Origin: Natrialba hulunbeirensis JCM 10989
GTDB lineage: Archaea > Halobacteriota > Halobacteria > Halobacteriales > Natrialbaceae
Direction of reading: 5' to 3'
Length of the DNA: 64,000 nucleotides
Assembly: GCF_000337575.1 (NCBI RefSeq)
Contig: NZ_AOIM01000034.1
Coordinates: forward strand, 78,860-142,859
Each line of letters begins with the position of its first letter. Position 1 is the first letter of the stretch. This document shows, in pieces, positions 41,659 to 58,595 of this stretch. The notes beneath the pieces are model-generated. The model saw only the letters and a program-made list of their open reading frames with translations. It was not told the origin of the DNA and did no database searches. Position numbers and translations under genes: made by a program.

Positions 41659-43788
41659 TCAGGAGAACCCGAGGAACTGCCGGTCGTCCGTTTGCTCTGT
41701 GACCGCCGGATACAGTATCACGAAGTTTCCCTCGGTAAGCCGTGCGATTCGCGCTGGCAGTGTCTGGAGTTCCGGATGCCACCCCGCATCCGTTCGACGC
41801 GAACTCATACAGACGATCAGGTCGCCCGCCTCTCCCGCGCTGTGAAGTGAGTCGGACAACTCGTTCCAGTTCGCGACCGTGTCGAATTCCACTGTGTGCT
41901 CTGGTGTAACGCCCTCCATCAACCGCTCGAACTGCGCTGATTCCTCGCCAACCACAACGGCGTGAATCGGCGCTCCCGTCTGCTCGGCAACGAGCGCCAC
42001 CGTATGCAACGCTTCGGCGATGCCATCGTTGCGAGCCACACTCGGCGGGAGCACGAGCACGATCCGCTGTGTGGTATTGAGTCGGTCTCGAATCCGCGCG
42101 ACAAGTGCGAGCTGCGTCGTTCGTCGGAGCACCTGGTCGATCACGTGGCCGAACACTCGCTGTGTCCGCGCACGAGCACCATCCCAGCCGATCACCAGTG
42201 TCGTGATGCGATTGTCGACCGCCGAGCCGACGATGCCCGAGGCGACATTGTGGTTTACTCGAGTGTGCGTCTCGAGTGGCACCGCTGCAGCCACGGTCTC
42301 GTCTGCCAGCGTCTCGAGTCGCGTCTCCGAATCACCGACTGCGGCGGCGGTCTGCGTGACGGTCCCGGGGCGGACGACGGTGGCCGCGTGGATCGGCTCG
42401 TCGGCGCGTTCGTCGCGGATCGTCATCGCGAGTTCGAGCAGCGAGCGGGGGTCTCTCGAGTCGTGTGCTACTGGGACGAGAATTCGCTGTGGGGCCGTAG
42501 CTGGATCGTACGGTTCGCGCTCGCGCGCACGAGCGATTTCTGTGCCGAATCGCTGGACGAGCGCGGGGCTAAACAGGCTGACGACGAGAATCATCACCAC
42601 GACGCCGTTGATCATGTGCTGGTCGAAGCCGCCGACGCCGGCGTCGAATCCGATCTGGACGATCGCGAGCGCCGCCGCGGCCTGGCCGACGGAGAGGCCG
42701 AACATGCTGTAGACTTCGTTACGGTCGTAGTCGTACAGCCGGCCGGTCACCCACGCGGCGAGATACTTCGTAGTGACGACCATCCCGAGCAGCGAGCCGG
42801 CGATGAGGAGCGTTTCGGTCCCCTCGAAGAAGACTCGCGCATCGACGAGCATGCCGACTGACAACAGGAAGAACGGGATGAATAGCGCGTTGCCGACGAA
42901 TTCGATGCGGTTCATCAGCGGCCCAGTTTCGGGGATAAGGCGATTGAGCGCCAGTCCGGCGAGGAACGCGCCGATGATGTGCTCGACGCCGACGAGTTCG
43001 GCGAGGATCGCACAACCGAAGAGGACGGCGAGGACGAACAGGTACTCGAAGTAACTCTCCTCGCTGTGGATCCGAAAGAACCACCGTCCGAGCCGCGGCA
43101 CGACGAGCCAGACGCCGACGAAGAACACCGCGAGTCCGGCCGTTAACTGCACCCAGAACGCGGCGTCCAGCTCACCGCCGACTGCGGCGATCACGACTGC
43201 AAGGACGAGCAGCGCCAGCGTGTCGGTTAGAATCGTCCCGCCGATCGTCGCCGTGATCGCCTCGTTCTTCGCGATTCCAAGCTGGGTAACCACCGGATAC
43301 GCGAGCAGCGTATGAGAGGAGAAGATCGCCGCGAACAGCGATGCAGCAGCAACGGACAGGTCAAGTACTGCGACGCCGACCACGGTACCCACAGCCTGCG
43401 GAATCGCGAACGAGAGCAGTCCGAAGACGATGCTCCGGTCTCTGTACGCGACGAACTGCGCGAGGTTGATCTCGAGTCCGGCGATGAACAGCAGGTAGAT
43501 CAGGCCGACCTCGCCGAGCACCTGGATCGTCTCGCCGCGCTCGAGAAGGTGGAGTCCGTTCGGGCCGATCATCGCGCCGACGAGGATGATGCCGACGATG
43601 CCCGGCAGCCGATACCGTTTGAGGACGAGCGGTGCGATCAGGAAAATCGCCACTGCGAGCCCGAAGATTGCAACGGGGTCGTCGAACGGGAGTGTCACCG
43701 CTACGGAACCCTCGAGCAACCCCGTCAGCGGTGACTCTCCGACAGTCGGCGACGCTGCCGACAAGGCATCTGATTCAGCGGGTGACAC
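41659..43788 (-). CDS. Kef-type cation/proton antiporter with two USP-like domains
   Basis: A 709-residue CPA2 transporter. About 12 membrane helices span residues 40-410; the helix-5/6 region reads LFIAGLEINLAQF and AAIFSSHTLLAYPVVTQLG, as in K+ or Na+/H+ exchangers of the Kef/GerN group. The C-terminal cytoplasmic part consists of two USP-like units: RILVPVAHDSRDPRSLLELAM at about 435-560 and RIVLVLPPSVARNDGIAEALHTVALVAEQTG at about 570-695. There is no TrkA-N domain. Regulation through nucleotide or stress signals is an inference. It starts at GTG 43788. Confidence 0.92.
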   Translation of the reverse strand: MSPAESDALSAASPTVGESPLTGLLEGSVAVTLPFDDPVAIFGLAVAIFLIAPLVLKRYRLPGIVGIILVGAMIGPNGLHLLERGETIQVLGEVGLIYLLFIAGLEINLAQFVAYRDRSIVFGLLSFAIPQAVGTVVGVAVLDLSVAAASLFAAIFSSHTLLAYPVVTQLGIAKNEAITATIGGTILTDTLALLVLAVVIAAVGGELDAAFWVQLTAGLAVFFVGVWLVVPRLGRWFFRIHSEESYFEYLFVLAVLFGCAILAELVGVEHIIGAFLAGLALNRLIPETGPLMNRIEFVGNALFIPFFLLSVGMLVDARVFFEGTETLLIAGSLLGMVVTTKYLAAWVTGRLYDYDRNEVYSMFGLSVGQAAAALAIVQIGFDAGVGGFDQHMINGVVVMILVVSLFSPALVQRFGTEIARAREREPYDPATAPQRILVPVAHDSRDPRSLLELAMTIRDERADEPIHAATVVRPGTVTQTAAAVGDSETRLETLADETVAAAVPLETHTRVNHNVASGIVGSAVDNRITTLVIGWDGARARTQRVFGHVIDQVLRRTTQLALVARIRDRLNTTQRIVLVLPPSVARNDGIAEALHTVALVAEQTGAPIHAVVVGEESAQFERLMEGVTPEHTVEFDTVANWNELSDSLHSAGEAGDLIVCMSSRRTDAGWHPELQTLPARIARLTEGNFVILYPAVTEQTDDRQFLGFS

Positions 43789-43925
43789 TGGCCGCTGTTA
43801 TCGTCTACGGCAATGACCGTAACCGGTTCGCGTGCATGTGCCCGCTGCCCACTCGGTACGGCCGGTCATCGGCCCGGTTCGAATCACTGGCACTCCACTG
43901 GAACAGCTACCGTTTTGGACGCGTG

Positions 43926-46427
43926 CTAGCCTGGTCCGGTGTACTCGCTGCCGATAACCTCCCGCATTCGTTCAGCAGTCACCTGTCCGACGCCGTCGGC
44001 CGCCTGCAACTCGTCTTCGGTCGCGATCATCACCGCTTCAACCGTGCCGAACTCCTCGAGTAGCGAGCGTGCGGTCACCGGCCCAATCTCGGCGATCGAG
44101 GAGACGACGTACTCCTGTTGCTCAGCCAGCGTCTTCGACTGCTTCTCGCCGTGGACCGAGACCTCGCGGTCTGAAAGCTCCTGTTCTCGGCCTGCGATTA
44201 CTGCGAGCAGTTCTGTCGTCTCGTCCTCGCCTTCGGTCCGGAGCACACTCGCACCAAAGTCGACGGCCAGACTCGAGAGTGCCCCGCGAATCGCGTTCGG
44301 GTGGATGTCCCGCTGTTCGTACAGGCCGTCGCCCTCGACGACGACGATGGGGCGGGCGTAGTGGCGGGCCATCGCACCGACCTGCTCGAAGACGGAGCGG
44401 TCACCGCCGACCAGCGAGTCGACGAAGTCGGCGACGGACTTGCGTTCGACGACGACGCGATCTGAAAGGACGTAGTCGCCCACGTCGAGCGTCTCGAGTC
44501 GGACCTCGATCTCCTCGCGTCGGGAGAGGTCGCGGGCGATGTTGGCGTCCATCTCGCGCTGGTCGGCGACGATCTCGATCGCGTCGCCCTCGGCCGACGG
44601 CTCGTGCGTTTCCACGTTGTCGGCCTCGCTGTCCGATTCGCCGTCCGCCGTTTCCTCGTCATCGTTGCCAGCCTCGAACTCCTGCAATCCTGGCTGTGGC
44701 GAACCCCCTCCGCTTCCACTGGAAGAGTCGGAGACTGCGTCGGGATCGTTCCCGTTTTCGTCTACTTTCACTTCGCTGTCTTTCTGGCCGTCGGCGTCGG
44801 TGCTGGCGTTGGCTCCGTCGGTACTCGAGTCCCCACCGAAATCGGCGAGCGACTGTTGGGACTCGTCGAGTTCGTCGGCGAGGTCGTCGGCCATCCCCTT
44901 TAGCTCGCGCAGTTCGGACTCCATCTCTTTCTCGCGGCGCCGAGAGATCCAGAAGTAGGCCTCGTCGCGGGTGTCTTCGGCCATGAGGACGACGACGCGA
45001 CCCTCGGACTGGCGGCCGGTCCGGCCCTTGCGCTGGATGGATCGAATCGCCGTCGGGACCGGTTCGTAGAACAGCACGAGGTCGACTTCGGGCACGTCGA
45101 GGCCCTCTTCGGCGACCGACGTGGAGACGAGCACCTCGAACTCGGCGGCGCGGAACTCGTCGAGCACTTCCTGTTGCTGTTTCTGCGTCATGCCGTCCGA
45201 GCCCTCGCGGTCACCCTGCCCGACGAAACGCTTCGCGTCGAAGCTATCCGAAAGGAACGCCGTCAGCGCCTCCGCCGTGTCTCGGGACTCGGTGAAGACG
45301 ATTACGCGCTCGCCGCCCTCGAGTCCGAGCGTCTCCGCGAGGAGCATCCGCGTCTTGCGGTACTTGGGGTGTAACTCGTCGAAGCTCTCGGCTTTCCGCA
45401 TAGCCTCGCGAACGCGCGGGTCCGAAACCATTCGCTGGCTGGCCTTCGAGGCCCCCGAGGAGCGAGCCTGGTTGCGTTGGCGGTCGAAGTACCGCCGCAG
45501 GGCCTCGACGCTCTGGGTTTCGACGAGCGTGACCGCCTGGCGGAGCTTCATCACCTCCGCGTGGACCGACATCCCCTTGAACCCCTCCGACTGGTCGTTG
45601 TTGATCAACTGCTGTAACTCGGCGCGCATCCGGTTCAGGTCCTTCTGGGACTGGTCGGGCTGGGTCGACTTCGCGACGCCCAGTTCTTTGAGTTTCTCGA
45701 GTCGATCCGTGATCACCTCGTTCAGCGCGTCGCGGATCTCCAGCACCTCGTCGGGGAGGTCGATTCGTTCCCACTCGACCTCCGTGTCGTGGGTGAACTC
45801 GTCGACGTCGGCGTCCTCCTCGGTCATCACCTCGACTTCCTGCAGGCCGAGGTTCTCACAGACTTCGAGGATGGCTTCCTCGTCGCCGCCGGGCGAGGCC
45901 GACATCCCCGTCACGAGCGGGTCTGCCGCGTCCGTGTGGTAGCGCTCGGCGATGTAGTTGTACGCGTAGTCGCCGGTCGCGCGGTGGCACTCGTCGAACG
46001 TCAGGTGAGTCACGTCGGCGAGCGAGATCCGGCTCCCGACGAGGTCGTTTTCGATCACCTGCGGGGTGGCCATCACGACCGTCGCCTCCTCCCACAGTTC
46101 GGCGCGGTCGTCCGGGCTCACGTCGCCGGTGAAGACGACGATTTCGTCGTCGGGAATCTGGAGCGCTTCGCGGTAGAAGTCGGCGTGTTGCTGGACGAGC
46201 GGCTTCGTCGGGGCGAGCATCAGCGACGTGCCGCCGACCTCGTCGAGTCGCCGCGCCGTCACGAGCAGGCTCACGGTCGTCTTGCCGAGACCCGTCGGGA
46301 GACAAACGAGCGTATGACCGTTCGCGGCGGTCCCGGCGAGTTTCAGCTGGTAGAGACGGCGCTCGAGAAAGTCGGACTCGAGTAGCGGGTGATCGATCGA
46401 GGGCGGCTCCTCGTCCTGGGCTGCCAT
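43926..46427 (-). CDS. hef: Hef helicase/nuclease (XPF/FANCM-type)
   Basis: Archaeal fork-structure helicase plus nuclease, 833 residues. SF2 helicase: the Q-like segment FLERRLYQLKLAGTA, Walker A LPTGLGKT around 41, motif II DECHRATGDYAYN, MSASPG as motif III, then VLVSTSVAEEGLDVPEVDLVLFYEPVPTAIRSIQRKGRTGR as motifs V-VI. A charged linker of about 80 residues, rich in Asp, Ser and Gly, lies at 535-610. ERCC4 nuclease: IVADQREMDANIARDL, VGDYVLSDRVVVERKSVADFVDSL with the ERK catalytic triad. Two HhH motifs end the protein (IAEIGPVTARSLLEEFG and ADGVGQVTAERMREVIG). The start MAAQDEEPP is at 46427; the 64 upstream codons are AT-rich and spurious. Confidence 0.96.
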   Translation of the reverse strand: MAAQDEEPPSIDHPLLESDFLERRLYQLKLAGTAANGHTLVCLPTGLGKTTVSLLVTARRLDEVGGTSLMLAPTKPLVQQHADFYREALQIPDDEIVVFTGDVSPDDRAELWEEATVVMATPQVIENDLVGSRISLADVTHLTFDECHRATGDYAYNYIAERYHTDAADPLVTGMSASPGGDEEAILEVCENLGLQEVEVMTEEDADVDEFTHDTEVEWERIDLPDEVLEIRDALNEVITDRLEKLKELGVAKSTQPDQSQKDLNRMRAELQQLINNDQSEGFKGMSVHAEVMKLRQAVTLVETQSVEALRRYFDRQRNQARSSGASKASQRMVSDPRVREAMRKAESFDELHPKYRKTRMLLAETLGLEGGERVIVFTESRDTAEALTAFLSDSFDAKRFVGQGDREGSDGMTQKQQQEVLDEFRAAEFEVLVSTSVAEEGLDVPEVDLVLFYEPVPTAIRSIQRKGRTGRQSEGRVVVLMAEDTRDEAYFWISRRREKEMESELRELKGMADDLADELDESQQSLADFGGDSSTDGANASTDADGQKDSEVKVDENGNDPDAVSDSSSGSGGGSPQPGLQEFEAGNDDEETADGESDSEADNVETHEPSAEGDAIEIVADQREMDANIARDLSRREEIEVRLETLDVGDYVLSDRVVVERKSVADFVDSLVGGDRSVFEQVGAMARHYARPIVVVEGDGLYEQRDIHPNAIRGALSSLAVDFGASVLRTEGEDETTELLAVIAGREQELSDREVSVHGEKQSKTLAEQQEYVVSSIAEIGPVTARSLLEEFGTVEAVMIATEDELQAADGVGQVTAERMREVIGSEYTGPG

Positions 46428-46602
46428 TGGCGGCGGCTTCGACGCGGGTCCGGTTAAGGATTGAGAAAGCGAGGTGAAAGTAAATCTATTTTGAAGCCAC
46501 ATATTGTAGCCTGATTGATCGCGCCATATCTCCTGAAATCTGGTGTACGACTTTAATATGGATAATGTGGATAGTAAAAACACATATCTAAAACTACTCA
46601 AA

Positions 46603-46610
46603 ATTATATC
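46603..46610 (+). promoter_or_regulatory. TATA box of the S1 protease gene
   Basis: ATTATATC centred about 30 nt before the ATG at 46636, inside a strongly AT-rich stretch. It favours this start over the one at 46543 or 46669. Confidence 0.55.
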
Positions 46611-46635
46611 TGTGTACATCTGTATGCTTGTCTGT

Positions 46636-47874
46636 ATGGCAGATTGTATTAATCAGAAGTTAAGACGAATGGGACGACGACGGTTTCTCAGCACTGTGGC
46701 CGGTCTCGGTGTTTCAGGGGCTGCTTTGAACTTTCTCACAAAGGACGCTGTAGCCTCGGTTGATCTTGATGACGAGGTACCTCGCCTGTCGAAACTTCGT
46801 CACACGAATCACGAAGCGGTGCTTCGCCGTGAGGAAAAGCCGCAACGTGAACCGATTTTCTATACGATTCCCCGAGACGAGTGGGCTGTCGTTGAAACTG
46901 CACACGATGCTGCCGCTCAAGTCAACAGCTTGTTGGAAGCAGAGGGAGCCAGCGACGGGGTAACTGCGGGTGTGACGACTGTCACGCGGGGCCATCATTC
47001 CCAGAAAGCCGTCATCGTGAAGCGCACTGTCAACCGAGGGGAGGAGGAAACAATCGAACCTACCCCTTCCAAAGAGAAATTGAGGGGAATGCTCCCTGAT
47101 ACAATATCTGGGACTGCCGGGGATGGTAATTATCGGAGAACGATTGATGGTATTCCGATCACAATTGAGACGGAGCAACTGTCTCTCTCTAGTCAGACCC
47201 AGGACACATCTAGTGGCCCTGGAAACTACTATAATCACGAGTACCGACCTGTTCCAGGGGGGTCGGTTCTTCAATGGGGAGATGCTGCGAGCTTTCAGTA
47301 TGGCTCAGGAGGAACGCCGGTGCATGACGGAAGCAACAATGACTATAATCTTGTGACCGCTGGCCACGTGATTAAGGACGAGGATATGTACCAACCGGCA
47401 ACTGACGACGATCAACATATTGGTTCCCGAATGGACGACAAACATGACGATCCCGGCACGCCAGAGCCAGCATTCGACGCTGGTGTCATTGATCTTGACA
47501 CAGATACGTACCATCAGTTCGCTGGGGCCAGTGGTGACGATACTTATTGGGACGATGTCCACATCTTCGGTATTGTCGGTCGAGATGAACTTGTTGACAA
47601 CGAGAACAGTGACTACAGTCTTCGAAGACGAGGTGCGAGAACAGGTATGGAATCCGGAACGCTCAACGAGGTCTACGACGACCACCATGCATTCGATACA
47701 TCTGCAGACGAAGATGACGGCGACTCAGGGGGGCCCCACTTCATGCGCGAATACAACTCTGGTCTCGGAATCTACGAAGCATATATTGCGGGAATTCATT
47801 ATGCCGGGAACACAAAAATGTCCCGTGCAACGATGATGAGCGCCATTGAATCAGAATACTCGGTTGCAGTCTGA
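46636..47874 (+). CDS. Tat-exported chymotrypsin-fold (S1) serine protease
   Basis: A 412-residue secreted protease in an AT-rich patch. The signal (RRMGRRRFLSTVAGLGVSGA) carries the RR-x-F-L Tat motif. Residues about 40-200 are likely a pro-region. The catalytic domain has the triad in the right order: His244 in LVTAGHVI, Asp281 in PAFDAGVIDLD and Ser364 in DDGDSGGPHF, with the GDSGGP oxyanion segment complete. Only a few cysteines, all in the signal, so no disulphides. The protein uses more Asn, Ser, Ile and Lys than its neighbours. The stop overlaps the next ATG (TGATG), indicating an operon with the lipoprotein. The substrate is unknown. The AT-richness suggests horizontal acquisition. 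Confidence 0.88.
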   Translation: MADCINQKLRRMGRRRFLSTVAGLGVSGAALNFLTKDAVASVDLDDEVPRLSKLRHTNHEAVLRREEKPQREPIFYTIPRDEWAVVETAHDAAAQVNSLLEAEGASDGVTAGVTTVTRGHHSQKAVIVKRTVNRGEEETIEPTPSKEKLRGMLPDTISGTAGDGNYRRTIDGIPITIETEQLSLSSQTQDTSSGPGNYYNHEYRPVPGGSVLQWGDAASFQYGSGGTPVHDGSNNDYNLVTAGHVIKDEDMYQPATDDDQHIGSRMDDKHDDPGTPEPAFDAGVIDLDTDTYHQFAGASGDDTYWDDVHIFGIVGRDELVDNENSDYSLRRRGARTGMESGTLNEVYDDHHAFDTSADEDDGDSGGPHFMREYNSGLGIYEAYIAGIHYAGNTKMSRATMMSAIESEYSVAV

Positions 47875-48500
47875 TGGCTTTGGGTCGTCGCCGGTTTTTG
47901 GCTTCCGGTGGTGCAGCGATTGGCAGTGTGTGTGCCGGATGTTCGATGCCCTCACAGACGGATAACCGGAAATACATGATCGGAATGGATACTGGATTGG
48001 AGCTTACGGACGTTTCTAGCCACAAAGAAGCCGACGTTCGATTTGAGGCCGAACTGTGCCACGGAACGATCGAGACGCCACCGGAGATCGAGTTCCGACT
48101 GACAAATACCGGCTTTCCCCGCCAGTTCTTTTTCGGAGCGAAGCCGCCGTTTACAGCGGTACTAAGCGAGGAGGGAACTCTCACGCTCATTCCTGAAGGT
48201 GACGGTACTTATGTAGGGCCAGTTGATCCAGATGGTCCCGAACGCCCGGCAGAGTTCATCCCCGACTCCCCCAACGAGGGATGCTGGCGGGCGCTGGGAA
48301 CACCACTCAAGGTGAGCATCGGGAAAGCGATACCGCTGGATCGCGATGAGACGATTTCGGTTCGCTACACCGTGCTCGTGTCGGCCGATCACGACGTAGC
48401 GTGTCCACCGAACGGCTCTCATCAGGTGACAAGCAGGTTCTCGATTGGGACAGTTCAGGAGAACGTACACGAGGCGACAGCCACACTGCACGTTGGCTAA
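47874..48500 (+). CDS. Tat lipoprotein coupled to the S1 protease gene
   Basis: A 208-residue lipoprotein whose ATG overlaps the stop codon of the protease gene. The signal has GRRRFLASGGAAIG and a lipobox ending AGC with Cys23. The mature part is a beta-rich domain with ETPPEIEFRLTNTGFPRQFFFGAKPPF and IPLDRDETISVRYTVLVSADHD, which look like Ig-like or BsuPI-like strands. One conserved-looking internal segment contains two cysteines (EGCWRALG and DVACPPNG) that could form a disulphide. I recognise no known family. Because of the coupling it may be an inhibitor, anchor or chaperone of the protease; this is inference only. Confidence 0.85.
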   Translation: MALGRRRFLASGGAAIGSVCAGCSMPSQTDNRKYMIGMDTGLELTDVSSHKEADVRFEAELCHGTIETPPEIEFRLTNTGFPRQFFFGAKPPFTAVLSEEGTLTLIPEGDGTYVGPVDPDGPERPAEFIPDSPNEGCWRALGTPLKVSIGKAIPLDRDETISVRYTVLVSADHDVACPPNGSHQVTSRFSIGTVQENVHEATATLHVG

Positions 48501-48681
48501 CGACGATACGAGAGTGGAAATTCGAGTCGGTTCGAATTTCGGTATCGGCAGGGGACTCTCTGTGGTCGTCATCGCGAACAAACTTCGACGATTTCATCGA
48601 TTCGAACTGTCTCGAACGAACGTCCGCCGTATTATCCCTATTTCCAACATGTGACACGAGTGGCACGCAAGGTGCCCTCGG

Positions 48682-49275
48682 ATGCCCGAACACGACATCG
48701 AGTCGCTGACGCCCCGTGAGCGCGCCCGAATTATCAAGTCTGCCGTCGCACCGCGCCCCATCGCCTGGATCAGTACAACGAGTGCCGATGGCGTCGACAA
48801 CCTCGCACCGTTCAGCAGTTACAACTACATCTCTTCCGCGGAGCCTGTCGTCCTCTTCAATACCCCGTACGCAGAGAGCGGCGAGCAGAAGGACACGCCA
48901 CGAAACGCACTCGAGACGGAGGCGTTCGCGGTCAACGTCGTTCCCGAGGCGCTGGCTGAGCAGATGGACACGACCTCCGCTGATCTCGATCCTGACGAAA
49001 ACGAGTTCGAGTTCGCCGGCGTTGAGCGGGCCGACTGCGAACGAATCGACGCGCCGCGAGTCGCGGACGCGACGGTCACGATGGAGTGTACGCTATACGA
49101 TTCGTTGCACGTCCGCGACCGACTCGTGATTCTGGGTGACGTCGAGTACGTTCACGTCGACGAGTCGGTGCTGACGGACGGGCAAATCGACGCCGCGAAG
49201 ATCGATACGGTGGCTCGCCTCGGCGGGCCCTACTACACCGACAGCGAGCCGATCGAACTCGAGCGCCAGTTCTGA
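48682..49275 (+). CDS. Flavin reductase-like FMN-binding protein
   Basis: A 197-residue protein of the flavin reductase/DIM6-NTAB family (split-barrel FMN fold). LTPRERARIIKSAVAPRPIAWISTTSADGVDNLAPFSSYNYISSAEPVVLFNT is the diagnostic N-terminal half, with the APRPIAW and NLAPFS flavin contacts. DTPRNALETEAFAVNVV and the C-terminal MECTLYDSLHVRDRLVILGDVEYVHV complete it. Such proteins bind FMN and transfer electrons to monooxygenases or have unknown roles. ATG 48682 begins the protein after a 180-bp gap that holds no gene. No oxygenase is adjacent. Confidence 0.9.
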   Translation: MPEHDIESLTPRERARIIKSAVAPRPIAWISTTSADGVDNLAPFSSYNYISSAEPVVLFNTPYAESGEQKDTPRNALETEAFAVNVVPEALAEQMDTTSADLDPDENEFEFAGVERADCERIDAPRVADATVTMECTLYDSLHVRDRLVILGDVEYVHVDESVLTDGQIDAAKIDTVARLGGPYYTDSEPIELERQF

Positions 49276-49303
49276 TTTCGTCCCATCTTCTGATTCTCAC
49301 GCG

Positions 49304-50479
49304 CTATCCCTCTGGCAACCAGTAAACGAGCACCATCGCACCGACCGCAAGGACGGCCAGCAGGATGTACCCCTCGTTGAAGAAGCCGCGGTCGGCGAGC
49401 GCGCCGAACAAAACCGGACTCGCCGCGCCGATGGTCATGTAGAACGTCCGCAGGAAGCCGAGCCCTGTCCCCTTCATATCCGCCGGAAACGCCGCTGTCA
49501 TGTACGTCAGCGTCATCGTTCCGTAGCCGAGGATACTGCTGAGGAGGATGGTGCCGCCCACGATCGGCCAGAACCCCTCGAGGAACGGCAGCGCGGCGAG
49601 TGCGAACGCGATGACCCCGAGCACGGCCGGCAGCGAGCGGCGGATGCCAAACCGGTCGTACAGATTCCCCGTCACCGGCTGGACGACGATGCCGAGCGCG
49701 AAGAAGGCGCTGAACAGTCCTGTCGCGACCGCCGGCGAGAAATCCTTGATCTCGATCAGATACGTCGGGTAGAAGCCCGTAAACGCCTGCCAGATGCAGT
49801 AGGTGAGGATCTGGATCGCCGTGACGACGATAATCGCTCGCCGGCGCAACTGGACGGCGACGTAGCGGACCGTCTCGAGTGACATGCTGTCGACCGCGCT
49901 CGACTCGCCGGAGGTTCGGTTCGGGACGACGAGCCACAGAAAGAAGGCGGCGAGCCCGAAGAGGGGGACGGCGAGGCCGAAGCCGAACTGCCAGGCGAGT
50001 GTTGCTGCAATCGCGCCGGCAACGAGTGGGAGAACGGCGTTGCCGACCTCGCCCGCGGCCATCGTGATGCCAATCGCGGTGCCGTCGTTGTCGGGGAAGA
50101 CGTCGGAGAGAATGGTGAACCGGGCGACGCCGTAGAGCGCCGTTCCGAAGCCGAAACAGGCCGTCGCGACGAAGACGATCGGTGCCGAATTGGCGACGGC
50201 GACGAGCCCGAGCGTCGCTGCTGAAATGACTGTGCTCACGACGAGCACGTTCCCCTCACCGAGTCGATCAGCGAGGATACCACCCGGCAGCTGTCCGAGC
50301 GCGTACGCGAGCCAGAGCACGGTCAGCAGGAAGCCGGCCGTCGTCAGATCGAGGCCGTACGATTCCTGCAGATAGGGAAGCAACACCGGGTACGCCAGGC
50401 GAACGCCGATCGAGAGAAACCAGCCGGCGGCAACGGCGGCAAGGATCTTGCCGCGCCTGCCGGTCAGAAACGTTCTCAC
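49304..50479 (-). CDS. MFS transporter
   Basis: A 391-residue major facilitator with 12 predicted helices. After a basic start (VRTFLTGRRGKILAAVAAGWFLSIGVRLAYPVLLPYL) the loop 2-3 motif reads GQLPGGILADRLGEGNVLV (G-x-L-A-D-R-x-G). Helix 4 follows, and the second half has FGIRRSLPAVLGVIAFALAALPFLEG. The sequence resembles sugar-phosphate or oxalate/formate-type exporters but without a specificity call. The frame is open 61 codons upstream to 50662. GTG 50479 is preferred because the basic cytoplasmic N-terminus and helix 1 begin there. It is convergent with the flavin reductase gene. Confidence 0.87.
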   Translation of the reverse strand: MRTFLTGRRGKILAAVAAGWFLSIGVRLAYPVLLPYLQESYGLDLTTAGFLLTVLWLAYALGQLPGGILADRLGEGNVLVVSTVISAATLGLVAVANSAPIVFVATACFGFGTALYGVARFTILSDVFPDNDGTAIGITMAAGEVGNAVLPLVAGAIAATLAWQFGFGLAVPLFGLAAFFLWLVVPNRTSGESSAVDSMSLETVRYVAVQLRRRAIIVVTAIQILTYCIWQAFTGFYPTYLIEIKDFSPAVATGLFSAFFALGIVVQPVTGNLYDRFGIRRSLPAVLGVIAFALAALPFLEGFWPIVGGTILLSSILGYGTMTLTYMTAAFPADMKGTGLGFLRTFYMTIGAASPVLFGALADRGFFNEGYILLAVLAVGAMVLVYWLPEG

Positions 50480-50697
50480 GCTCGATAACGATTCGGACCG
50501 AAACAGGTGTGCCACAGTCTGGCTCAGCCGTTGGCTTTCGTTGCCTATGATAGCATCTGTACGGTACGATGTTGCCGATATCGATACTCGAACTTGCTGG
50601 TGCTCCACTCGATGCAGTTCCAACACCAGCCCGCTCCTCCGACACTGCATGCCACCGACCAACGCTTTTGTTGCTCCTTCCCGTACATCGTGATACT

Positions 50698-50832
50698 ATG
50701 TGCCACTGCTTCGACGAAGTCGACGACCTGTCCGAGACGAAACGTGAGGCAATCCGCGCCGAACACAGTATCGACGAACTCCGGACGGAGTACTCCGCCG
50801 ACGAACTCGAGAAACTCGGCGTCAGTGCCTGA
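50698..50832 (+). CDS. 44-residue conserved-looking acidic mini-protein
   Basis: A small gene reading MCHCFDEVDDLSETKREAIR, then AEHSIDELRTEYSADELEKL and GVSA. The CHC pair at the N-terminus (Cys2 and Cys4) plus an amphipathic, acidic helical body is suggestive of a small regulator or metal-binding peptide. The frame reads upstream to 50569, but the start at ATG 50698 is natural. I recall similar short MCHCF-starting haloarchaeal proteins but cannot name the family. It is convergent with the carboxypeptidase gene, 51 bp apart. Confidence 0.7.
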   Translation: MCHCFDEVDDLSETKREAIRAEHSIDELRTEYSADELEKLGVSA

Positions 50833-50883
50833 ATCGGTTCGCTACGCCAACAATAGTCGCCGAGCCACTGATCCTGTCGCGGC

Positions 50884-52410
50884 TCAGCCACTCTCCTCAG
50901 CGATCGCTGTTACGAGTTCGTCGACCCGCGGTGACGCGCCGTTGGCTCGCTCGCCCGTCAGATTCGCCGCGAGCACCGCGAAACTCGTCGCCGGTTCGCC
51001 GTCGTCTTCAATAACGCCCGCGAGACACGTCACGCCCCGAAGCGAGCCGGTTTTGGCTCGAATCGTTGCGTCGACGTCCCCGAGTCGGTTCCGAAGCGTG
51101 CCGTCCTCGCCGGCGACTGCCATCGTCCCGTAGAACTCCTCGCCCCAGTCGGCGTCGAGTGCCCACTCGATCATCGAGACCGCGTCGCGCGCCGAGGCGA
51201 GGTCGTGTCTGGACAGTCCGGAGCCATCGCGAATCTGTGGCGTCTCCGCACCGGCCGCCGCGAGCGTCTCGTCGAGATACGACTCCCAGACCGACCAGGA
51301 GCCGTTTCCGGTACCCTCGCGCTCGTAGGCCACCGTTCTGGCGATGTTCTCCGCAACCATGTTGTACGACCAGTGGTTGAGTCCCTCCGCGATGTCGGAC
51401 AGCGGTACCGACTCGTGAGTCGTCACCTCTTCCGTGAACTCGATCGGCTCGTCGCTGATCTCGATTTCGGGTTCCGGACCGCCGCCACCCGGCGTGATCT
51501 CGACACCCTCGTCCGCGAGCGCCCGCGCGAAGACTCTCGCAGCGTGCTCGTTCGGCGTCGCGACCGGAACCGACGCCGTCGCCTCGTCGTCCGGCACCAT
51601 CCGCCCGTTCACCTCGGCGGTATTCGTCCAGTGGTTGGGCGTCGTTATCGTCACGAACCGGTCGCTGTCGACGCACTCGAGTTCAATCTCGACATCAACG
51701 AGCCCCGAGTCGGGTTCGACCGTGTGCTCGAACTCGCAGTCGTCGCCCTGCCGGGAGACCGTTACCTCGGCCTCGTTGTGGTTGACGACGAACGCCGAAC
51801 TCTTCGAGCCGTACGTGTTCACCGCGTCGCCGAGCGTCCACCCCGGCGGGTACTCGCCGTCGTCGAACGCGGAGACGTCGACGACGAGCCGATCGGTGAC
51901 GCGCTCGATGCCGGCGTCGGCGACGGCCGCCGCGAGTGCTTCGAGGTCCGACGCCGTGAGGTCCGGATCGCCGCTGGCGACGACACCGAGCGATTCCACG
52001 ACGCGCTGATTTCGGCGGTCGCCGACGACGCCGACAGTCGTCTCGTACCGATAGTCGGGGCCGAGTTCGTCGAACGCGGCCGCAGTGGTCAACAATTTTG
52101 TCGTCGACGCTGGCTGGACGGGTCGTTCCGACCCGCTGTCGGCGATCACGTCCCCGGTTTCGATGTCGCGTGCGAAGACGCTGATCGCCGCCTGATCGAG
52201 GTGGTCGAACACGTCGCCGGCGTCGACCGGTGGCCCCTGTTGGGTTTGCTGACTCTGCCCGGCTTGCTGCTCCTGGTCGCTTTCCTGTGTCTGTTCTTCC
52301 TCCGCCTCATCCGCGGCGCTGGCCTGACTCCCCGCTACCAGCCCCGTAACTGCTGTGAGTCCCGTTGCCTGTACGAATCGCCGTCTATCGAGCGTGAGCG
52401 CGCTGAACAT
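50884..52410 (-). CDS. dacB: PBP4-type D-alanyl-D-alanine carboxypeptidase (peptidase S13)
   Basis: A 508-residue exported protein. The Tat signal is LDRRRFVQATGLTAVTG; a Gln/Glu/Ser-rich linker follows to about 65. All three penicillin-binding motifs are complete: SxxK as Ser102-T-T-Lys105, SxN as Ser348-Tyr-Asn350, and KTG as Lys453-Thr-Gly455. DGSGLSR, another PBP4 hallmark, lies near 396. A large insertion domain between the first and second motif is typical of class C1 PBPs. Haloarchaea have no murein, so the substrate is unlikely to be peptidoglycan; a different peptide bond or lactam is conceivable. The start at 52410 is supported by a TATA box and palindrome upstream. Confidence 0.9.
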   Translation of the reverse strand: MFSALTLDRRRFVQATGLTAVTGLVAGSQASAADEAEEEQTQESDQEQQAGQSQQTQQGPPVDAGDVFDHLDQAAISVFARDIETGDVIADSGSERPVQPASTTKLLTTAAAFDELGPDYRYETTVGVVGDRRNQRVVESLGVVASGDPDLTASDLEALAAAVADAGIERVTDRLVVDVSAFDDGEYPPGWTLGDAVNTYGSKSSAFVVNHNEAEVTVSRQGDDCEFEHTVEPDSGLVDVEIELECVDSDRFVTITTPNHWTNTAEVNGRMVPDDEATASVPVATPNEHAARVFARALADEGVEITPGGGGPEPEIEISDEPIEFTEEVTTHESVPLSDIAEGLNHWSYNMVAENIARTVAYEREGTGNGSWSVWESYLDETLAAAGAETPQIRDGSGLSRHDLASARDAVSMIEWALDADWGEEFYGTMAVAGEDGTLRNRLGDVDATIRAKTGSLRGVTCLAGVIEDDGEPATSFAVLAANLTGERANGASPRVDELVTAIAEESG

Positions 52411-56978: not shown

Positions 56979-57140
56979 ATGGTGTCGAAACCCCACACCA
57001 CAGCGGCAGACGAGACGGTCGTCGGCTCGATCGATTCGACGGATTCGAGCGACGAGTACGTCATTGCGGATATCTCGGCCGACGACGCATGGCTCTCCAT
57101 GCGAGCGGACGAGGCAATGACACTTCCGGCGTGGCGATAG
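56979..57140 (+). CDS. 53-residue haloarchaeal mini-protein
   Basis: A small gene: MVSKPHTTAADETVVGSIDS, TDSSDEYVIADISADDAWLS, then MRADEAMTLPAWR. A beta-rich, acidic core ends with a well-defined DAWLSM(R)ADEA-LPAWR tail, which looks like a conserved signature. I recall similar short proteins in many haloarchaea, but none with known function. The start is fixed by the TATA box. It is divergent from the CBS/glyS unit and well spaced from the next gene. Confidence 0.78.
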   Translation: MVSKPHTTAADETVVGSIDSTDSSDEYVIADISADDAWLSMRADEAMTLPAWR

Positions 57141-57216
57141 GGGGGTTTCACTGTTCGACACGGTGGGGGCCTGTCGGGCTGCAGTGGCGTACAAGCGGGC
57201 GCTTCGTTCGCGTCCG

Positions 57217-57369
57217 CTACTTCTTAGCTATCGTAAAAACGTCTTTGAGCTTGCTTTGTTTCGCCTCATCAAGGTGCTCGCCGAGAATCTCTTTAGCGTC
57301 GTCAGGTCGTGATGGACTTTTTTCGTAGGCTTGAGTACAAAAATTCGAGTTTTCGGAGAAACGTGCTAT
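57217..57369 (-). other. Open in-frame extension after the lipoprotein stop; possible coding remnant
   Basis: Directly behind the TAG of the lipoprotein gene (57370-57372) the same frame continues for 50 codons before TAG 57217-57219. It reads FSENSNFCTQAYEKSPSRPD, then DAKEILGEHLDEAKQSKLKD and VFTIAKK. The last 25 residues look like a real helical C-terminus with Lys/Glu alternation. It may be the end of a former gene, or the frame is open by chance. No start codon or domain supports it as its own gene. Confidence 0.3.
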
Positions 57370-58422
57370 CTAGTATATCTCCTCTTGGAGACATAGCACT
57401 GGAACGACCGACGTGTCGTCTCGCTCCGGGAATGTTACCGTAACTTCGGCAGATTGGGGCGTCGATTCGACGACTGTTTCGAAGTCCACCTGGGGTCCCC
57501 AGTTCTCACCCGATCCATACTCGATTTCACCCTCGTTCGAATACATTGTTGTATGACGGACGACGGGGGTGACAGCGACCTCGCTCTCGGATTCCGTCCA
57601 GTCAACGGCTTCTTCGTGATCGAAGAACCCGTCCGTGACCGCATCCGGTTCAACGTCGATCGCGGTTTCCCTCTCTTCGGCTCCATCTACCGTCGCCTTC
57701 ACGATACCCTCTTCTTCAAGGAGCGTTTGGACGTGATCTATAGTGGCGCTCGTTGCCTGTCTTGTGCTCCATTCGTCAAACGCCATCTCTTTCGTCTCTC
57801 CTGTTTCGGTCTCGATGGAGACACGATTGTCGTCCCCAGAATGTTCGTACTCTTGGTCGGGAGCCGCTTCAATCGAAACGGGGGGTGCTTCACCGAGAGC
57901 CAAAGCACGTTCGGTGGTCCCAGCATCTTCGCCGTCAACCTCCACACTCACTGTCTCGGGGATTCCGGCCATCTCATCGGTGATACGGAGGACTAATCCA
58001 TGATAGGCCAAATCGTGGTCTCCTGCGTCTGGAGAGACGGTCTCTACGATTGCATGGATACCGGACTCCGTGCGATCCATCGCCGCCAGTTCTAACCGAT
58101 GCGGACTTGACCACAACCCTGCCAAGATAGCTACAAGATATGAATTGTTGAAATCCGTCTCGTTGATAAACGCATCTACATCCCCGTGCTGTTCTAGCCG
58201 AGCTTCGGCTGCCGCTCTATCGGCAAGAACCGTCTGGTAGGATGACGGTGTGCTTGATAGACCGCTTGCCAGTTCGGTATCCGCAAGGGGAGAGGCCCGG
58301 TAGAGAGACTCAACGGACATCCCGACAGGGTTCTCTGATCCAGTCTCTTCTCCTCTACCCAAGCAACCTATTACCCCGAACGAAAGGAGCGACGACGTTG
58401 CGAGGAGTTTCCGACGCTTCAT
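57370..58422 (-). CDS. Lipoprotein of unknown function in AT-richer DNA
   Basis: A 350-residue exported protein. MKRRKLLATSSLLSFGVIGC gives a Tat-like RR-K and a lipobox with Cys20. The mature part starts with a polar stretch, then a domain with SYQTVLADRAAAEARL, INETDFNNSYLVAILAGLWSSPHRLELAAMDRTE (an EF-hand-free, mixed fold) and VEVDGEDAGTTERALALGEAP. The last 130 residues are beta-rich with SEVAVTPVVRHTTMYSNEGE. It resembles the lipoproteins of unknown function seen in haloarchaea. The ATG at 58422 is preferred over GTG 58425. Base composition is more AT-rich than the flanks, similar to the S1 protease patch. Confidence 0.8.
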   Translation of the reverse strand: MKRRKLLATSSLLSFGVIGCLGRGEETGSENPVGMSVESLYRASPLADTELASGLSSTPSSYQTVLADRAAAEARLEQHGDVDAFINETDFNNSYLVAILAGLWSSPHRLELAAMDRTESGIHAIVETVSPDAGDHDLAYHGLVLRITDEMAGIPETVSVEVDGEDAGTTERALALGEAPPVSIEAAPDQEYEHSGDDNRVSIETETGETKEMAFDEWSTRQATSATIDHVQTLLEEEGIVKATVDGAEERETAIDVEPDAVTDGFFDHEEAVDWTESESEVAVTPVVRHTTMYSNEGEIEYGSGENWGPQVDFETVVESTPQSAEVTVTFPERDDTSVVPVLCLQEEIY

Positions 58423-58595
58423 CACGGGAAATTAATATCACCACACACAAATATCTTCTTCAAGCACAAATATCGATTTTACAGTCGTAATCGTCCCAGT
58501 ATGGCGCTCGCGACATGATCTCTTACGGTGAGTCGCCTCGTTTAGTGATTTACCAGAGCCCAACATTTAGTACACCGTCGTTGATGTCGTAGTCG

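Follow-up and report, generated by a model that had tools for sequence, protein, structure and literature searches.

A haloarchaeal family of trypsin-fold proteases recurrently linked to lipoproteins, and a possible protease-inhibitor cassette in Natrialba hulunbeirensis

Between hef and a flavin reductase gene, Natrialba hulunbeirensis JCM 10989 carries two overlapping genes, one for an exported trypsin-fold protease and one for a probable lipoprotein. Why should a secreted protease be encoded together with a membrane-anchored protein, and does the arrangement recur elsewhere? To our knowledge, few haloarchaeal extracellular proteases besides subtilases have been characterised, and we know of none among them with a genetically linked membrane-anchored controller. 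The locus was analysed within a 64,000-nucleotide stretch of contig NZ_AOIM01000034.1, hereafter called the window, and compared with related loci in other haloarchaeal genomes. The coordinates of its features are collected in Table 1.

An AT-rich insert between hef and the flavin reductase gene

The hef gene lies on the minus strand and starts at 46427, and the flavin reductase gene begins at 48682, with two open reading frames between them. A preliminary description of this DNA had called the whole interval (46428-48681) AT-richer than its surroundings. The composition agrees with this. The GC content of the segment is 0.523, against 0.635 +/- 0.027 in 1-kb windows, and GC3 is 0.50 for the protease gene and 0.60 for the lipoprotein gene, compared with approximately 0.79-0.85 for the flanking genes. 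Codon adaptation is similarly low (0.425 and 0.484, respectively; window median 0.68, lowest other gene 0.457), so that GC content and codon bias, which the description had proposed to compare with the flanks, are far from the genome average. The limits of the patch, however, had to be redrawn. When positions 43001-51000 were searched by blastn, the flanks aligned with those of two congeners (G001 and G003) at 91-93% up to 46484 and again from 48682; up to 46484 the alignment identity is still 93%, and the insert starts at 46485. In both congeners, a 61-bp spacing between hef and the flavin reductase gene replaces the 2,197-bp segment. Since the flanks are aligned with just these 61 bp between them, the two genes arrived or departed as one 2.2-kb unit, and from its composition we infer a gain here rather than a loss in the congeners.

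The vehicle of the segment was also considered. Terminal repeats and a target-site duplication were looked for at the ends of 46485-48681 and none were found, and a transposon was dropped as a candidate for want of terminal repeats. Scans of viral contigs with the lipoproteins gave no homologues, and a six-sequence protease profile matched none of these contigs, which leaves a viral origin of the cassette unsupported. The genes of the segment matched no known anti-phage defence system among the PADLOC models. Elsewhere in the window, a second AT-rich dip (57000-58500, GC approximately 0.54) holds a minus-strand open reading frame of 351 aa (57370-58425) with a codon adaptation of 0.457 and no Pfam match.

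Table 1. Features of the inserted segment and its two genes (positions in the window)
Feature	Position	Strand	Basis
Accessory segment, AT-rich, 2,197 bp, holding both genes	46485..48681		blastn and composition
Tat-exported S1 (trypsin-fold) serine protease, predicted preproenzyme, 412 aa	46636..47874	+	ORF, Pfam, family profile against PDB
Twin-arginine signal region MADCINQKLRRMGRRRFLSTVAGLGVSGAALNFLTKDAVA	46636..46758	+	sequence; kept across the protease family
N-terminal alpha/beta domain, approximately residues 42-205, probably pro- or inhibitory	46759..47250	+	AF2 model, hhalign
Catalytic His244 (predicted)	47365..47367	+	invariant in family alignment A1
Catalytic Asp281 (predicted)	47476..47478	+	invariant in family alignment A1
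Catalytic Ser364 (GDSGGP; predicted)	47725..47727	+	invariant in family alignment A1
TGATG, protease stop overlapping lipoprotein start ATG	47872..47876	+	sequence
Probable beta-rich Tat lipoprotein of 208 aa from the haloarchaeal PPF/CW/C family (profile BsuPI-like)	47874..48500	+	ORF, family searches
Putative lipid-modified Cys23 (CAGC lipobox)	47940..47942	+	sequence; rule of PMC2945643

The protease and the overlapping lipoprotein gene

The protease gene probably starts at ATG 46636, with the open frame extending upstream to GTG 46543, and stops at TGA 47872-47874. The encoded protein comprises a twin-arginine signal, a separate domain of approximately 160 residues, and a trypsin-fold domain with the motifs TAGH, FDAGVID and GDSGGP. 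The preliminary description had predicted a Tat-exported protease with a complete His-Asp-Ser triad, and the triad is indeed intact: His244, Asp281 and Ser364, in the order His-Asp-Ser and with GDSGG around the serine, are invariant in 17 of 17 aligned relatives. On the single sequence, Pfam Trypsin scored 17.6 bits, under the cut-off, while the family profile matched streptogrisin B in the PDB (E = 8e-9). By its triad and profile homology the protein is an S1 (trypsin-fold) peptidase with predicted activity. It shares the catalytic domain fold and triad with streptogrisin B and alpha-lytic protease (VIA Z 5.8; the model is of low confidence). These are bacterial secreted S1 enzymes with pro-regions, and the window protease differs from them in its N-terminal domain and its Tat export. 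We know of no lipoprotein partner of either enzyme.

Structure prediction, proposed earlier for both proteins, was usable for one part only. The AF2 model of the protease has fair confidence for the N-terminal domain alone (residues 46-184, pLDDT 55-85), with the secondary structure b-b-a-b-b-a-b-b, whereas the lipoprotein model, at pLDDT 32, could not be used. A Foldseek search with the model of the N-terminal domain returned nothing significant. Stand-alone lipoprotein versions of this domain were matched to the protease N-terminal domains by hhalign at 98.2%. NAL1-type trypsin-like proteases, with a short N-terminal alpha/beta domain ahead of an S1 domain, may have a comparable layout: a structural alignment of the protease with NAL1 spans both domains, albeit with a non-significant score on a low-confidence model (VIA Z 4.1-4.7), and serves as no more than a lead. 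NAL1 is a plant protein with which the window protease gave no sequence match, and a PDB search with a NAL1-like outer relative of the protease found nothing.

As first described, the stop codon of the protease gene overlaps the ATG of the second gene. The product of this gene begins with GRRRFLASGGAAIGSVCAGCS. In haloarchaea, Tat lipoproteins follow a rule of a twin arginine and, within 12-21 residues, a LAGC-like lipobox (PMC2945643). Here (GRRRFL...CAGC-S), 16 residues separate the second arginine from the cysteine, no charged residue precedes the lipobox, and Ala at -2, Gly at -1 and Ser at +2 fit the rule; Cys at -3 is atypical. The product is therefore a probable Tat lipoprotein, as proposed. 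The accompanying claim that it has no known family did not stand, for its family is widespread in haloarchaea and has a BsuPI-like profile. Pfam found no match to the single sequence, BsuPI (PF12690) included.

When the family was aligned by hhalign with genuine haloarchaeal BsuPI, the score was 89%, with collinearity at TN.G, W, L.PGE and G.Y. Unrelated controls gave at most 5%, with unrelated families and reversed decoys at no more than 2% against the window family, and other sandwich partners of the proteases gave 31% and 7%. At the single-sequence level the likeness is weak: Pfam BsuPI matched 2 of 23 family members, with a best E of 0.0047. BsuPI/IPI of Bacillus subtilis (PF12690, PDB 3ISY) has an Ig-like beta fold, may be located at the cell surface and reportedly inhibits a serine protease, the subtilisin Isp1, although doubts about its status as an inhibitor have been raised and MEROPS has withdrawn its entry (PMC3901451). 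Because of this dispute, we left the window lipoprotein unassigned to BsuPI and say only that it resembles it. It differs from IPI in being approximately twice as long, in its CW and C motifs and in lacking a Pfam BsuPI match, and the target of IPI is a subtilisin (S8) while the window protease belongs to S1. Genuine BsuPI is common in haloarchaea, occurring at G000:C41:168539-168805 (L209) and in 56 of 116 class genomes, mostly in open frames of approximately 110-400 aa.

Recurrent linkage and apparent exchange of lipoprotein neighbours

Profile searches identified full-length relatives of the protease in approximately 27 of 391 class genomes belonging to several families, and the protease family is thus patchy. 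They include Halorussus halophilus, Halocatena salina, Natrinema thermotolerans, Halopiger djelfimassiliensis and Halorutilus salinus. N. hulunbeirensis itself has a paralogue on contig C41, followed by a gene for a beta-propeller lipoprotein. The divergence of profiles A1 and A2 made them unsuitable for scanning the collection; the six-sequence profile found 8 loci among genome contigs.

The neighbourhoods of 76 loci with either gene were compared, with genes called by a codon model and lipobox proteins marked by one regular expression. The next downstream gene encoded a lipobox protein at 18 of 37 non-redundant core protease loci, compared with 33 of 598 other genes (5.5%; odds ratio 16, p = 5e-12), and the upstream gene was not enriched (2/37). 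By a second uniform criterion, a lipobox ORF lay at most 300 bp downstream of 23 of the 37 core proteases and of none of 25 subtilase genes (p = 1e-7), a control that is effectively smaller than 25 because the subtilases include near-orthologues. The Cys at -3 of the lipoprotein keeps the window pair from matching the regular expression. Once this pair and others judged by inspection (L056, L058, L066, L160, L162, L172 and L174) were added, approximately 31 of the 37 core proteases adjoined a lipoprotein or window-type partner.

The window-type lipoprotein family was also searched for independently of the proteases. Core proteases have its members as neighbours in no fewer than six other genomes, compared with an expectation of 0.016 (p approximately 2e-14) under a uniform model, which sets chance adjacency too low since accessory genes gather in islands. 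The adjacent genes are co-directional in G358 and G202, convergent in G029 and G305, and divergent in G164 and G059; most members of this lipoprotein family adjoin no protease. The neighbourhood search, which had been suggested as a check on conservation, thus recovered homologues of both genes side by side outside N. hulunbeirensis, and taken with the counts above it shows that the protease family and its lipoprotein neighbours are recurrently linked. For a protease paired with a membrane protein, as the preliminary description proposed, the evidence of association is strong. The pair is not a fixed two-gene system, as partner families and orientations vary.

The partners at core proteases belong to more than one family: window-type beta-sandwiches, Big_14-like sandwiches (L161 and L071, weak matches), a second, small family whose members frequently lie in tandem (L056, L059, L158, L159 and L167), propellers (L061 and L063), and lipoprotein versions of the N-terminal domain of the protease itself (L068, L170, L173 and L181). 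Low-complexity linkers follow the lipobox in many of them. In the lipoprotein tree, protease-linked members are scattered, which forces at least four changes, and protease and lipoprotein distances are uncorrelated (Mantel r = -0.04, eight pairs), so partners have been recruited or exchanged repeatedly. With orientation varying and no co-divergence with the protease, the partners appear swappable, and a single ancestral protease-lipoprotein pair was dropped on account of the same tree and distances. The small second family was dropped as a protease-specific partner, as the proteins retrieved with its profile form a broad haloarchaeal family that also occurs without the protease.

Several further features of these loci were observed. 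L056 (Ods02 MAG contig, G095:C33) carries a duplicated cassette in the order protease, sandwich lipoprotein, small lipoprotein, protease, sandwich lipoprotein and three tandem small lipoproteins. Winged-helix regulators of the FilR1/HVO_A0261 type lie directly upstream of family proteases at L056:6056-6790, L059:1365-2087 and L062:6568-7317, the first identified by Pfam and the other two by similar sequence only. Transposase genes (IS66, DDE_Tnp_1) adjoin family proteases at L069, L070, L160, L161 and L162, which suggests mobile surroundings for some of them. Family proteases are truncated or split at L065:976-1518, L067:7646-8182, L027, L028, L031 and L032, pointing to fast turnover; some of these still adjoin a lipoprotein gene. 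In many haloarchaea (L095, L017, L021 and others), the N-terminal domain of the protease occurs as a lone lipoprotein with no adjoining protease.

Possible roles of the lipoprotein

The reading that we prefer, with a probability of about 0.5, is a horizontally mobile protease-plus-guard cassette consisting of an exported zymogen and a cognate inhibitor or immunity protein anchored at the surface. The protease would be synthesised as a preproenzyme and leave the cell through Tat in folded form, its N-terminal alpha/beta domain holding it inactive or aiding its folding. The lipoprotein gene would be read from the shared message by coupling at the TGATG overlap, and its product anchored at the outer face of the membrane. 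There, the BsuPI-like beta-sandwich lipoprotein may bind the protease and inhibit or restrain it on the producer's own surface, which would direct proteolysis to outside substrates while protecting that surface. The protease would thereby be controlled in cis by its N-terminal domain and in trans by a lipid-anchored protein. Across haloarchaea, the protease family would retain a lipoprotein neighbour while the kind of lipoprotein changes, copies of the N-terminal domain included.

By analogy, the best reading would be a protease with its cognate inhibitor, for which the Bacteroides C10/Bti operons and staphopain/staphostatin may serve as models. In Bacteroides, C10 proteases (Bfp/Btp) are exported with a pro-region, and the adjacent gene, a few bp away and co-transcribed, encodes a staphostatin-like inhibitor (Bfi/Bti); some of these inhibitors are predicted lipoproteins, their identity is 15-26%, and their genes lie upstream or downstream of the protease (PMC3462683). 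The likeness extends to the exported protease, its pro-region and the adjacent gene, with co-transcription here presumed from the overlap. The Bacteroides systems are bacterial cysteine proteases with staphostatin-like inhibitors, in contrast to the archaeal S1 serine proteases described here, whose partners have several unrelated folds and a putative inhibitory role. We would file the cassette as a form of protease-inhibitor cassette with a hardly described family of proteases. In the open-access literature searched, no description of the protease-lipoprotein association was found, and the searched passages of a haloarchaeal protease review and of the Natrialba magadii genome paper mention neither trypsin-like proteases nor a protease-linked lipoprotein inhibitor.

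The lipoprotein might instead be an anchor, chaperone or activator that tethers the protease at the surface or frees it from its N-terminal domain. Genomic linkage fits any partner role, the TGATG overlap suggests matched amounts, and the propeller and Big_14-like partners have typical binding or scaffold folds; propeller lipoproteins, as beside the own-genome paralogue, do not look like inhibitors. We nonetheless infer inhibition from the sequences and favour it over mere anchoring, because copies of the N-terminal domain, easier to understand as trans-acting pro-domains, fill the partner slot and because one of the frequent partners has a fold reminiscent of a serine-protease inhibitor. In addition, the partner families have no common binding feature such as a dedicated anchor would need. 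An anchoring, chaperoning or activating role is less probable, clearly second to inhibition.

The same genes could serve polymorphic antagonism among haloarchaea, with the exported protease turned as a weapon on cells nearby, and the lipoproteins, which are exchangeable and sometimes arrayed in tandem (L056, L059 and L167), serving as immunity proteins of the producer's surface; we regard this as doubtful. Rather improbable is that the lipoprotein is a substrate, released or matured by the protease as part of surface remodelling or of a signalling relay: there has been a suspicion that BsuPI-like proteins are competing substrates rather than inhibitors (PMC3901451), and the partners are varied, many with linkers past the lipobox, yet lipoprotein copies of the N-terminal domain would be left unexplained. 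Chance co-location of two unrelated accessory genes in variable islands, overlap included, would suit their AT-richness and patchiness, the transposases at some loci and the Mantel r of -0.04, but is strongly disfavoured by six further adjacencies against 0.016 expected and by 18/37 against 5.5% for any lipoprotein, with 0/25 at subtilases.

If the guarded-protease reading is true, dozens of unannotated haloarchaeal lipoproteins would gain a testable role, and the N-terminal domain of the protease would be a candidate trans-acting inhibitor. Haloarchaea would also gain a genome-hopping protease/guard cassette, possibly used in cell-cell competition.
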